Positions 1,804 through 27,071 of a DNA stretch of 51,817 nucleotides are shown piece after piece. The DNA comes from Gemmatimonadota bacterium (GTDB lineage: Bacteria; Gemmatimonadota; Gemmatimonadetes; Gemmatimonadales; GWC2-71-9). The first letter of the stretch is position 1. Every line of letters starts with the position of its first letter. The stretch spans positions 1 through 51,817 of the forward strand of contig QHUJ01000148.1 in assembly GCA_003221895.1 (NCBI GenBank), read 5' to 3'. A model generated the notes under the pieces. The model saw only the letters and a list, made by a program, of their open reading frames with translations, had not been told where the DNA came from and did not search any database. Both the position numbers and the translations under genes were made by a program.

Positions 1804-4543
<2,740 letters not shown>

Positions 4544-22365: not shown

Positions 22366-22432
22366 ATGATCTAGCCGTGTCCCCGCCTCGCCGGTCATAT
22401 TTCTTTCCCCCCTTGCAGGAGAATTGCGCCGT

Positions 22433-24529
22433 ATGCGCGTGTACAAGACGCCGGAGATCCGTAATGTGGCCGTCGTCGGCCACGGCGCGAGCGGCAAGAC
22501 CTCCCTGGTCGATGCGCTGGCGTTCGTGGCCGGAACGAGTAAACGACATGGGTCTGTGAAGGACGGTACCGCCCTCACCGATTACACCGCAGACGAAATC
22601 GAACGCAAATACTCCATCAACCTCGCGCTGGCTGTCGCCGAGTGGATGGACACGAAACTCAACCTGATCGACACTCCCGGATACCTCGACTTCACCGGCG
22701 ACGCGCTCGCCGGGGTGTACGCGGCCGACTCCGCTGTCGTCGTGTTGTCGGCGACCTCGGGCGTCGAGGTGGGGACGGAGAAAGTCTGGGACTACTGCGA
22801 GAGCCGCTCGCTGCCGCGGTTGTTCTTCGTGTCGTTGATGGACAAGGAGCACGCAAACTTCGAGCGCGTCTTCAATCAGATCAAGGATCGGCTGACGCCC
22901 AAGGTGATCCCGGTGGAGATTCCCGTCGGCGAAGGACCGGAATTCCACGGGATCATCAACCTCTTCTCGAAGAAGGCGCATCTCTACAAGAAGGGTACGA
23001 AGGCCGGCGAGTACGAAGAGGTCGATGTTCCCGACGAGTACAAGGATCGCTTCGAGAAGTACTCCCAGGAGCTGATCGAGAGCATCGCCGCCACCGACGA
23101 CCAGCTGCTCGAGCGCTACCTCGGCGGCGAAGAGATCGGCCGCGACGAAGCGATCGCCGCGATGAAGGCCGGCATGGCGAAGGGTGAGCTGTTCCCGCTC
23201 TTCTGCGGGGCCGCCGAGCTGACGTATGGCACGCGCGCGCTTCTCAACAAGATCGTCGAGCTGTGTCCCGCGCCGCAGGAGCGGCCGCCGGTGGAAGCGC
23301 AGAAGTGGGGCAGCGCCGAGCGTCTCACGCTCAAGGCCGAGGACAACGGCCCGCTGGCGGCGCAGGTCTTCAAGACCGTGTCGGAGCCGCACGTCGGCGA
23401 CGTCACGCTGTTCCGCATCTTCTCCGGTACGGTCAAGAACGGGCAAGACGTCTGGAATGCGCCGCGCGATCTATCCGAGAAGCTGAACCATCTGTGCGTC
23501 GCGGTCGGGAAGGAGCGCATTGAAGTTCCCGAGCTGCACGCGGGGGACATCGGCGTCGTCGCGAAGCTGCGGGATACGCATACGAACGACACGCTGTCCA
23601 CCAAAGACAAAGGGCTCGTGCTTCCCAAGATTCCGTTCCCTGAGCCCGTGATCACTGTGGCGGTCGAGGTGAAGCAGCGGGGGGAGGAGGACAAGCTCTC
23701 GACCGGGCTACACAAGCTGCACGAGGAGGACCCCACGTTCCATCACGAGTACAATGCCGAGCTGGCGCAGACGCTCATTCGCGGCCTGGGCGAACGGCAT
23801 CTCGAGATCGTCGTGGGCCGGCTGGCGCGGAAGTTTGGTGTCCACGCGCAGACCGCGAAGCCCAGAGTCGCCTATCGCGAGACCTTCCGTGGGAAGTCCG
23901 AGGGGCAGGGGAAGCACAAGAAGCAGACCGGCGGTCGCGGCCAGTATGGCGATTGCTGGATTCGGATCGCCCCGCTGCCCCGTGGCTCAGGAGTACAGTT
24001 CGTGGATGAGATCGTCGGCGGCGTGATCCCGCGCCAATACATCCCGGCCGTCGAGCGCGGCGTGCTCGAGGCGGCGCACAAGGGGCCGATCGCCGGCTAT
24101 CCGGTCGTGGATTTCAAGTTCGAGCTCTACGACGGCTCCTACCACGACGTGGACTCGAACGAAATGTCGTTCAAGATGGCCGGCATCCTGGCGTTCCGGA
24201 ACGTGAGCCCGGGCGCGCGGCCGGTGCTGCTCGAGCCGATCATGGATGTCGAGGTCTGGACGCCGGACGAGTATCAGGGCGCGGTGATGGGCGATCTCTC
24301 CTCGCGTCGCGGGCACATCGTCGGAACGGAGAAGGATGGACGACTCACGAAGGTCAAGGCGCTCGTCCCGGAGGCTGAGCTCGACCGGTACGCCACGACG
24401 CTACATTCGATCACGCACGGGCGCGGGACGTACAAGATGAAGTTCCACGTGTACCAGGACGCTCCGGCCGAGATTGCCGCCAAGGTCACTGAAGCCCGGA
24501 AGAAGGAGCTCGAGGAAGCGAAAGCGTAA
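22433..24529 (+). CDS. Elongation factor G paralogue (EF-G2 type)
   Basis: A 698-residue translational GTPase. P-loop GHGASGKT (16-23), G3 DTPGYLDF, then domains II-V including GGRGQYGDCWIRIAPL (domain IV) and the terminal HGRGTYKMKFHVYQ. The P-loop lacks the AHIDAGKTT of canonical EF-G, switch I reads ERKYSINLALA and the G4 region is SLMDKEHANF, all features of the EF-G2 subfamily rather than the main fusA. Its role (ribosome recycling or a stress variant) cannot be decided here. AGGAG at 22417 lies 11 nt before ATG 22433; an in-frame TTG at 22424 is the alternative start. Confidence 0.93.
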   Translation: MRVYKTPEIRNVAVVGHGASGKTSLVDALAFVAGTSKRHGSVKDGTALTDYTADEIERKYSINLALAVAEWMDTKLNLIDTPGYLDFTGDALAGVYAADSAVVVLSATSGVEVGTEKVWDYCESRSLPRLFFVSLMDKEHANFERVFNQIKDRLTPKVIPVEIPVGEGPEFHGIINLFSKKAHLYKKGTKAGEYEEVDVPDEYKDRFEKYSQELIESIAATDDQLLERYLGGEEIGRDEAIAAMKAGMAKGELFPLFCGAAELTYGTRALLNKIVELCPAPQERPPVEAQKWGSAERLTLKAEDNGPLAAQVFKTVSEPHVGDVTLFRIFSGTVKNGQDVWNAPRDLSEKLNHLCVAVGKERIEVPELHAGDIGVVAKLRDTHTNDTLSTKDKGLVLPKIPFPEPVITVAVEVKQRGEEDKLSTGLHKLHEEDPTFHHEYNAELAQTLIRGLGERHLEIVVGRLARKFGVHAQTAKPRVAYRETFRGKSEGQGKHKKQTGGRGQYGDCWIRIAPLPRGSGVQFVDEIVGGVIPRQYIPAVERGVLEAAHKGPIAGYPVVDFKFELYDGSYHDVDSNEMSFKMAGILAFRNVSPGARPVLLEPIMDVEVWTPDEYQGAVMGDLSSRRGHIVGTEKDGRLTKVKALVPEAELDRYATTLHSITHGRGTYKMKFHVYQDAPAEIAAKVTEARKKELEEAKA

Positions 24530-24569
24530 GAGGTCTTGCTCGACACTACCGTACCGGAGGACGATCGCA

Positions 24570-24932
24570 ATGGACCTGAAGGCGCTGTGCGGCGCTGTGA
24601 GCGCCCTGGCGTTGCTGTGCGCATGCAAGGGGAAAGAGAAAGTCGGCCAGAGCGGCGCAGAGCAAAGAGCGTCGGGAAGTCAGCCAGCCAGGACCGCGAC
24701 GATCGAGGGATTCAAGACGCCCGAATCGGTCAAATGGGACTCGACGCAGGACGTTTACTTCGTGTCGAACATCAACGGCGCACCCAACGCGAAGGACGGG
24801 AACGGCTACATCAGCACGAATCTCATCAAGGGTGTGCCCAGTCCGGCGGACATTGGATACGACGCGAAGCGAAATCGCGTGCTGATACCGATTTTTACGG
24901 GAAATCGGGTAGAAATCTGGCAACTGCCGTAA
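24570..24932 (+). CDS. Miniaturised copy of the adjacent beta-propeller lipoprotein
   Basis: A 120-residue lipoprotein (signal ends ALLCAC). Residues 46-82 (GFKTPESVKWDSTQDVYFVS and onward to NGYIS) match residues 60-96 of the next gene, and residues 86-120 (GVPSPADIGYDAKRNRVLI and the EIWQL end) match its last 35. The roughly 194 residues between these parts, most of the propeller, are missing in frame. Signal, Shine-Dalgarno (GGAGG at 24556) and stop are intact. It is either a decayed duplicate or a small protein keeping only the first and last strands. Confidence 0.75.
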   Translation: MDLKALCGAVSALALLCACKGKEKVGQSGAEQRASGSQPARTATIEGFKTPESVKWDSTQDVYFVSNINGAPNAKDGNGYISTNLIKGVPSPADIGYDAKRNRVLIPIFTGNRVEIWQLP

Positions 24933-25011
24933 CCGCGACCGAGAGTCGTGTGCTGCGAATCACAGGGAACCCCCCTTTACGTCGACGGCAGTTTCGTGCG
25001 ACCCTTGGGGG

Positions 25012-25995
25012 ATGAGACCGACCGTACTCTGCGTTACCCTAGCAGCACTCGCGGCCTGCCAACCGGTGGACCGCCGCCGACCGCCGCCGCAAGCGTCGGA
25101 CGCCGCGGACACGCTTGCCCCAGCGACCGCTCAACCCCAGCCCCCGCCCCCGACTCCCTCTCCAGGGGGGACCAAGGTCGCGACGATTGTCGGGTTTCTG
25201 TCGCCCGAGTCAGTGCTCCATGATTCGGCGCAGGACATCTACTTCGTCTCGAACATCAACGGCGGCCCGCTGGCCAAAGACAATAATGGCTTCATCAGCC
25301 GCCTGCGGCCGGAGGGCGCCCTCGAGGTCCTCAAATTCATCGAGGGTGGTCGAGCAGGCGTGACCCTCAACGCACCCAAAGGCCTCGCGGTATCGGGCGA
25401 CACGCTCTGGGTGGCCGACATCGACGTCCTGCGTGCATTCAACGCGCATAGCGGTGCTCCGGTGGACAGCGTCAAACTCGACAGCCTCGGCGCGGTCTTC
25501 CTGAACGACATCGCGATCGCTCCGAATGGCGCGATCTACGTCACCGATACCGGCATCCGGTTCGATGACGTGGGCAACATCCTGCACCCCGGGCCGGACC
25601 GCATCTTCCGCGTGGGGCCGGACCGTAAAGTGTCCGTCGCGGTGCGGGGTGACACGCTCGGCCGGCCCAATGGCATCACGCTCGACGCCGTGGGGCGCCG
25701 GTTCATCATCGTGCAGTACGGCGGCAAGGCCGTGATGGCGTGGAAGCCTGGCGATCGCGCGCCCACCGTCATTGCGAGAGGCGCCGGCGGGTTCGACGGC
25801 GTCGAGATGATCGGCGGGAAGGTTGTCGTGTCGAGCTGGACGGATTCGTCGATCACGCGGTTCGACAGCACGCAGGGTACCAAGATCATCACCGGGGTGC
25901 CGAGCCCTGCTGATATCGGCTACGACGCCAAGCGCAACCGCGTGCTGATTCCGATTCTCACGGGGAACCGCGTTGAGATTTGGCAGCTCCGGTAG
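25012..25995 (+). CDS. SMP-30/gluconolactonase-like beta-propeller lipoprotein
   Basis: A 327-residue lipoprotein: signal ending LAAC (Cys16), a Pro-rich linker (about 20-55), then an SMP-30/NHL-type six-bladed propeller with repeated blade motifs (APKGLAVSGDTLWVADIDVL; LNDIAIAPNGAIYVTDTG; RPNGITLDAVGRRFIIV; PSPADIGYDAKRNRVLIP). It is probably attached to the membrane on the outside. Ligand or lactonase activity is not established. A run of G directly precedes the ATG. It is the full-length parent of the miniature gene upstream. Confidence 0.85.
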   Translation: MRPTVLCVTLAALAACQPVDRRRPPPQASDAADTLAPATAQPQPPPPTPSPGGTKVATIVGFLSPESVLHDSAQDIYFVSNINGGPLAKDNNGFISRLRPEGALEVLKFIEGGRAGVTLNAPKGLAVSGDTLWVADIDVLRAFNAHSGAPVDSVKLDSLGAVFLNDIAIAPNGAIYVTDTGIRFDDVGNILHPGPDRIFRVGPDRKVSVAVRGDTLGRPNGITLDAVGRRFIIVQYGGKAVMAWKPGDRAPTVIARGAGGFDGVEMIGGKVVVSSWTDSSITRFDSTQGTKIITGVPSPADIGYDAKRNRVLIPILTGNRVEIWQLR

Positions 25996-26018: not shown

Positions 26019-26055
26019 CCCCTCTCCGCCGGCGGAGAGGGGTCAGGGGGTGAGG
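26019..26055. repeat. GC-rich palindromic repeat, copy C (end of the agmatine deiminase gene)
   Basis: CCCCTCTCCGCC / GGCGGAGAGGGG stem followed by TCAGGGGGTGAGG, the same core as copies A and B. It provides the last codons and the stop of the agmatine deiminase gene. Confidence 0.75.
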
Positions 26056-27071
26056 ACGGGTTCCTGCTGCGTGAGGCAGTGCAACGTGCCGAGCCCCCAG
26101 ACGAGATCCACGGCATGGATCCCGACGACGGGACGGTCGGGAAACAGCTCGGCGAAGATGCCTAGCGCGATACGATCCTTGGGATCGTTGAACGTCGGCA
26201 CCAGCACCGCGGCATTCGCGATGTAGAAGTTGGCGTAGCTGGCTGGTAGCCGGACGCCAGCGAAGAACAACGGGGCGGGCATGGGGAGGTCGATCACCTC
26301 CACAGCCCGCCCATTTTCCAGGTGCATCCCCTGCAACCGCTCGCGATTCTCGGCCAGCGGTTTGTAGTTCACATCCTTCGGATTCTCCTCGTGGCACAGC
26401 ACGACGGTTCCCGGATTCACAAAGCGGCACAAGTCATCCACGTGCCCGTGCGTGTCGTCGCCCGCGATCCCTTTGCCGAGCCAGAGCGTGTTCGTGACGC
26501 CGAGCGTCTCCCGAAAGACGTTCTCGATCTCGTAGCGCGACAAACCGGGATTGCGGGTCTGCACTTTTGGATCGAGGAGACACTCCTCCGTCGTGAGCAG
26601 CGTGCCACGTCCATTCACGTCGATGCTGCCACCCTCGAGCACGATCTTGCCGTCGATCAGCGCCAGCTTGCATTGCTTCGCGGCACGCCCAGCGACCAGA
26701 TCATCCTTCTTCCAGTCCTTGTACTTGGCCCACGCGTTGAAATGGAAGCGCGCGATGGCGAGCCCCTTCGCTCCACGCACGAAGATCGGTCCGAAGTCAC
26801 GCGTCCAGCCGCGGTTGGTAGGAAAACGGAGAAAGTCCACGCGTGCGAGATCCACGCCGACCTTTTTGAGTATGCGACCTGCCTGAGCCTGGTGTGCCCG
26901 AGAGTTGACCAGAATGCGGACCAGTTCGCCCCGCGCGAGCGCGCGGACGATTTCCCCGTACACCCACGGTATCGGCGGGAACTTGCCGGGCCAGTCGCTT
27001 TTGTTGTGGGGCCAGCCGAGCCAGGTCGCCGCGTGCGGCTCCCACTCGGCGGGCATTCTGTAGTCGGTCAT
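26043..27071 (-). CDS. aguA: Agmatine deiminase
   Basis: A 342-residue cytosolic enzyme hydrolysing agmatine to N-carbamoylputrescine and ammonia. Family motifs: MPAEWEPHAATWLGWPH at the N-terminus, TRDFGPIFV, GGSIDVNGRGTLLTTEEC, HGHVDDLCRFV (catalytic His-Asp) and nucleophile Cys332 in GTLHCLTQQEP. The last residues (VLTP) and the stop lie in palindromic repeat copy C, so the original C-terminus may have been trimmed by the insertion. It follows the amidase gene on the same strand; together they convert agmatine to putrescine. Confidence 0.95.
   Translation of the reverse strand: MTDYRMPAEWEPHAATWLGWPHNKSDWPGKFPPIPWVYGEIVRALARGELVRILVNSRAHQAQAGRILKKVGVDLARVDFLRFPTNRGWTRDFGPIFVRGAKGLAIARFHFNAWAKYKDWKKDDLVAGRAAKQCKLALIDGKIVLEGGSIDVNGRGTLLTTEECLLDPKVQTRNPGLSRYEIENVFRETLGVTNTLWLGKGIAGDDTHGHVDDLCRFVNPGTVVLCHEENPKDVNYKPLAENRERLQGMHLENGRAVEVIDLPMPAPLFFAGVRLPASYANFYIANAAVLVPTFNDPKDRIALGIFAELFPDRPVVGIHAVDLVWGLGTLHCLTQQEPVLTP

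Follow-up and report, generated by a model that had tools for sequence, protein, structure and literature searches.

The short open reading frame that precedes a propeller lipoprotein gene in this window (the whole stretch of 51,817 nucleotides that was analysed, contig C220 in a draft soil Gemmatimonadota genome of 250 contigs and 3.71 Mb that is 97% complete) is, to judge by its sequence, a deletion derivative of a paralogue, B, and not of the adjoining gene, A. It is best explained as a remnant of B, a gene whose loss is in progress while A is the working copy, and we give this reading a probability of about 0.6. The locus comprises the following features:

22424-24529, plus strand: elongation factor G (EF-G), the upstream neighbour
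24556-24560, plus strand: ribosome-binding site GGAGG of the short frame, 9 nt 5' of its ATG
24570-24932, plus strand: short open reading frame of 120 aa, with the ATG at 24570 and the stop codon at 24930-24932
24815-24816, plus strand: deletion junction in the short frame, between GGCTACATCAGC and ACGAATCTCATCAAGGGT, placed by alignment at the segment ends
24933-25011, plus strand: spacer between the short frame and A, with homology to the sequence that precedes A in G002, G005 and G009
25012-25995, plus strand: paralogue A, a 327-aa six-bladed propeller lipoprotein with an SMP-30/DFPase-like fold
26043-27071, minus strand: agmatine deiminase-like enzyme, the downstream neighbour and the marker of the same locus in relatives

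The earlier note had described a propeller lipoprotein beside an in-frame miniature that lacks the centre, with an intact Shine-Dalgarno sequence. This description holds: both open frames are read, 193 residues are gone with respect to the neighbour (A residues 97-289), GGAGG stands before the ATG, and the frame is kept. The EF-G stop codon lies 41 bp before the start of the short frame. This frame is made up of a lipoprotein leader, blade 6 strand D, blade 1 strands A and B and part of strand C and, in frame after the junction, the end of blade 5 strand D and blade 6 strands A-C. By inspection the leader is lipobox-like (...ALLCAC-K), with LCAC-K found in the short frame and in B, and LAAC-Q in A. 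Two segments of DNA are shared with A, 24738-24815 with 25222-25299 (77% over 78 nt) and 24816-24931 with 25879-25994 (76% over 116 nt), both with a similarity far above chance, and PSPADIGYDAKRNRVLIP is identical in the two proteins. The ends had been called almost unchanged, which is true of the last 37 residues (89% identical to A) but not of the first-blade segment (~69%) or of the signal peptides, which are unlike.

A full-length B of 294 aa is present in the congener G007, and this single protein anchors the parent type. In a tree of 38 family proteins, the short frame is grouped with the G007 protein (bootstrap 97, SH-aLRT 91), and both fall outside clade A, which comprises 24 rows with 100/98 support and contains the A of the window; it is this grouping that points to B as the parent. 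The short frame and the G007 protein are 86% identical over 76 columns. Their first-blade DNA agrees at 88% over 120 nt, no other full-length match exceeds 77%, and the first-blade segment PESVKWDSTQDVYFVSNINGAPNAKDGNGYIS is nearly the same as PESVKWDSAQDVYFVSNINGVPNAKDGNGYIS of B. The last 37 residues alone cannot assign the paralogue, because they are too conserved across the propeller family.

The idea that A was recently duplicated in tandem and that one copy then lost its centre would agree with the adjacency of the two genes and with the near-identity of the last 37 residues, but it is hardly credible. The dS against A is ~2.1 in the shared codons, with the last segment beyond saturation and a small protein distance, and synonymous sites so near saturation mean that the two are not products of a recent duplication. 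The first-blade segment and the leader match B and not A, and both support values of the tree stand against this scenario. The tree and the DNA distances together rule it out, unless the short frame is a chimera that combines the front of a B with an A-like tail, for which some room is left because the tail is too conserved. The earlier note's suggestion of a recent deletion is thus retained as regards the in-frame internal deletion and is given up as regards a copy of the adjacent gene, since the tree names B as the parent. In G004, a divergent full-length propeller at the equivalent locus (L154:2134-2949) is weakly grouped with B (91/50), which suggests that the type of paralogue at this locus changes from species to species.

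The gene order in relatives suggests where B once stood. A gene of ~450 aa stands 5' of A in G002, G003, G005 and G006, EF-G is directly 5' of A in G008 and G009, and in G007, which has no A, the end of the 450-aa gene is directly 5' of B. The sequence after the stop codon of the short frame matches the region upstream of A in three of these genomes (G002, G005 and G009), which places B directly upstream of A. The simplest ancestral order that these sequences suggest would be 450-aa gene, B, A and agmatine deiminase, with B or A lost by lineage; alternatively, B may have been inserted at the locus in some lineages. No convincing traces of B were found in the spacers of congeners that have no B. 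A horizontal arrival of B is conceivable; the dS to G007 is 0.67 for the stump, somewhat low and based on 52 sites, versus 1.1 for two neighbouring genes.

The ~450-aa gene (L157 about 2395-3750, L156 about 490-1850) lies between EF-G and this locus in G002-G006; it is missing from the window (24530-24569) and from G008 and G009, and in G007 it seems to be truncated. Upstream of A in the window (24990-25014), the leader of ~40-50 bp seen in G002, G005 and G009 is missing, including the usual GAGGAG, and only a GGGGG run directly adjoins the ATG; from this sequence the translation start of A may be weak. The coding sequence of A is strongly constrained, with an omega of 0.05-0.08 against close relatives.

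The predicted structure of A (pLDDT 88.5, pTM 0.81) contains 24 strands in six four-stranded blades, and an N-terminal strand (residues 54-60) closes the ring. Four of its residues, E66, N165, N220 and D262, do not vary among 20 homologues. Aligned with B of G007, the short frame has one gap, in frame, of 185 codons (B residues 72-256). In the numbering of A, the missing part begins in blade 1 strand C (94-98) and stops in blade 5 strand D (288-294), and blades 2-5 are gone except for the end of blade 5 strand D. The remainder amounts to nearly two blades, with the C-D hairpin of the first blade ~9 residues short. Of the calcium site only the glutamate (residue 52) is left, and the other three invariant residues lie within the deleted part.

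In the proposed course of events, B, an anciently diverged propeller paralogue once directly upstream of A, would have undergone one in-frame deletion of ~555 nt that joined the middle of blade 1 strand C to blade 5 strand D. Blades 2-5 would thereby have been removed, leaving an exported stump of 120 residues. With one of the four calcium-site residues left, the metal-dependent chemistry of the parent would be impossible in the stump, which is probably functionless at present.

The nearest full-length B, that of G007, has no long repeat common to both ends of the deletion and, as it is not the immediate ancestor of the short frame, does not establish a microhomology at the junction. A junction inside the 'FIKG' of blade 1, where B has TTCATCAAGGGT and the stump the similar CTCATCAAGGGT, was rejected, as it would require two events. 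The last blade of G004 naturally has KLIKGVPTPAD, and a single deletion ending before TNLIKGVPSPAD is therefore simpler. The odd base composition of the last segment was also considered as a sign of decay and was ruled out, since the third-position GC of this segment is the same, ~0.60-0.69, in G002, G005, G007, G008 and G009.

It might be supposed that the organism has an intact B, which was collapsed by the assembler or in metagenome binning. The genome is indeed a draft and, of the genomes searched, it is the only one with the short form. However, none of its contigs carries the middle of B, an argument against a collapse; no other pieces of it were found on these contigs, where the one weak match to B elsewhere has an E value of 0.004 (35% over 62 residues). 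The G007 gene offers no long repeat at the deletion ends that could collapse, and chance would give a clean in-frame junction in one case out of three. An assembly artefact is thus rather improbable.

The codons that were kept carry a record of constraint. Between the short frame and B of G007, dN is 0.061 and dS is 0.668, the latter resting on ~52 synonymous sites. For the strictly retained segments omega is 0.062 against B, compared with 0.03-0.10 for pairs of A genes and 0.22 for one pair of low divergence (the G006 row, misregistered by one codon, is left out of the table). Under simple Poisson assumptions, a neutral phase after the deletion would occupy no more than ~10-25% (95% limits) of the period that has passed since G007 split off, and by these codons a long-dead gene is excluded. 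The low dN/dS indicates that the deletion is recent or that the stump is still selected, and one genome cannot decide between the two. The comparison of Ka/Ks in the shared segments, which the earlier note had put forward as a check, thus found constrained codons, a result compatible with a recent deletion as well as with a selected mini-protein. Counting against decay, the leader, the ribosome-binding site and the frame of the stump are all intact, and its codons are as constrained as those of most full-length A pairs. The remnant reading consequently needs the deletion to have occurred late on the branch, and we infer that it is recent there.

Alternatively, the short form may be a mini-protein kept by selection, exported as a lipoprotein with almost two blades. 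It would either self-assemble, three copies giving a six-bladed ring, or pair with A. Such a product is unlikely, though it deserves consideration: the retained codons are constrained, the translation signals, leader and frame persist, the deletion joins the blade segments roughly in structural register, and the chains of Pizza2, a two-blade design, trimerise into a full six-blade propeller (PMC7337062). Against it, only one genome carries the short form, the truncated hairpin leaves something other than two clean blades, the AlphaFold model has a pLDDT of 58 overall and below 50 across the junction (residues 68-83), and the constraint can lie wholly before the deletion. Its strongest form, a natural mini-propeller made in one step that is stable, exported, selected and self-assembling, or that caps the full-length neighbour, is very improbable. 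The swapping of strands into the full propeller, once envisaged for the miniature, found no support in view of the poor model and the loss of three of the four calcium-site residues.

The short form was found in none of nine congeners and in none of the other 101 of the 102 family genomes searched. Most of the named relatives to which sequence comparison led are metagenome assemblies of Gemmatimonadetes from soil. Absence from relatives, together with a lack of expression, had been named beforehand as evidence that would refute the case for the miniature, and the absence part is what was found. No second true mini form was detected, and the two fragments in G068 (C69) and G067 (C118) are not counterparts. 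In plasmid records there was a single match, weak and partial.

The G068 fragment (L149:1474-1710) is a C-terminal piece of another propeller paralogue, with an open frame of 109 aa and without the first blades; its sequence marks it as a remnant that arose independently within this bacterial family. In G067, the last ~30 codons of a propeller gene are repeated 3' of a response-regulator-like gene (L150:1462-1569 and 2191-2283), which is followed by a similar response-regulator gene, and this looks like the tandem duplication of a segment in which the tail of the gene was included. Both fragments indicate that pieces of the propeller family do arise and persist.

If the short frame is a remnant, the locus neatly captures the loss of one member of a tandem pair of paralogues, and both parental types can be recognised in related genomes. 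Should the stump instead fold and be retained, it would exemplify in nature the blade-deletion step that is assumed in propeller evolution and design. In either case, a short frame beside a similar full-length gene need not stem from that gene.

No paper on the A/B propeller gene in Gemmatimonadota was found in the literature. The closest solved relative of A is Cj1041c from Campylobacter jejuni (PDB codes 22gu, 22gv, 22gw and 22gx), a Ca2+-binding six-bladed propeller whose structure was solved both with and without Ca2+. The relationship is evident from sequence (phmmer E value 5e-22, profile E value 2e-36) and from the predicted fold (Foldseek E value 3.5e-20, TM 0.86 by target length, 30% identity). 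The PES, LND, PNG and DG motifs are common to both proteins, and the E/N/N/D residues of A align with the same residues in the Ca2+-bound protein. By this alignment A has all four predicted calcium ligands, and the short frame does not. A differs from Cj1041c in its long leader and in being a lipoprotein of Gemmatimonadota, and the short form has no counterpart in Cj1041c.

Foldseek also matched A to DFPase, gluconolactonase and designed Pizza propellers. The Pfam SGL (PF08450) score of A is 25.7 bits, below the cut-off of 26.3, so A is assigned to the SMP-30/DFPase-like proteins by fold and not as a curated SGL member; its NHL score is 28.2, above the cut-off of 20. The DFPase/SMP-30/gluconolactonase superfamily is like A in having six blades, with an N-terminal strand that closes the last of them. 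DFPase binds its calcium through E21, N120, N175 and D229, a pattern that matches the E/N/N/D of A by motif, with E66, N165, N220 and D262 as the corresponding residues. Three of these, E21, N175 and D229, are discussed at the DFPase calcium site (PMC3737025). The likeness suggests that the family of A consists of calcium-dependent hydrolases or lactonases; the short form, with its single calcium-site residue, differs from the superfamily in this respect.

As a short chain that comprises roughly two blades of a six-bladed propeller, the stump resembles Pizza2 and also the RSL lectin, another two-blade chain that trimerises into a six-blade ring. Both of these are marked by two complete four-stranded blades per chain, which the stump does not have. 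Its two blades are dissimilar, one of them has a truncated hairpin, the predicted structure is poor and the form is known from one genome; by analogy with Pizza2, a selected mini-propeller would be possible but is unsupported. The stump is closer to degraded bacterial paralogues and gene remnants, being an internally deleted copy in a single genome beside an intact paralogue, although, unlike these, it still has its frame, leader and ribosome-binding site intact.
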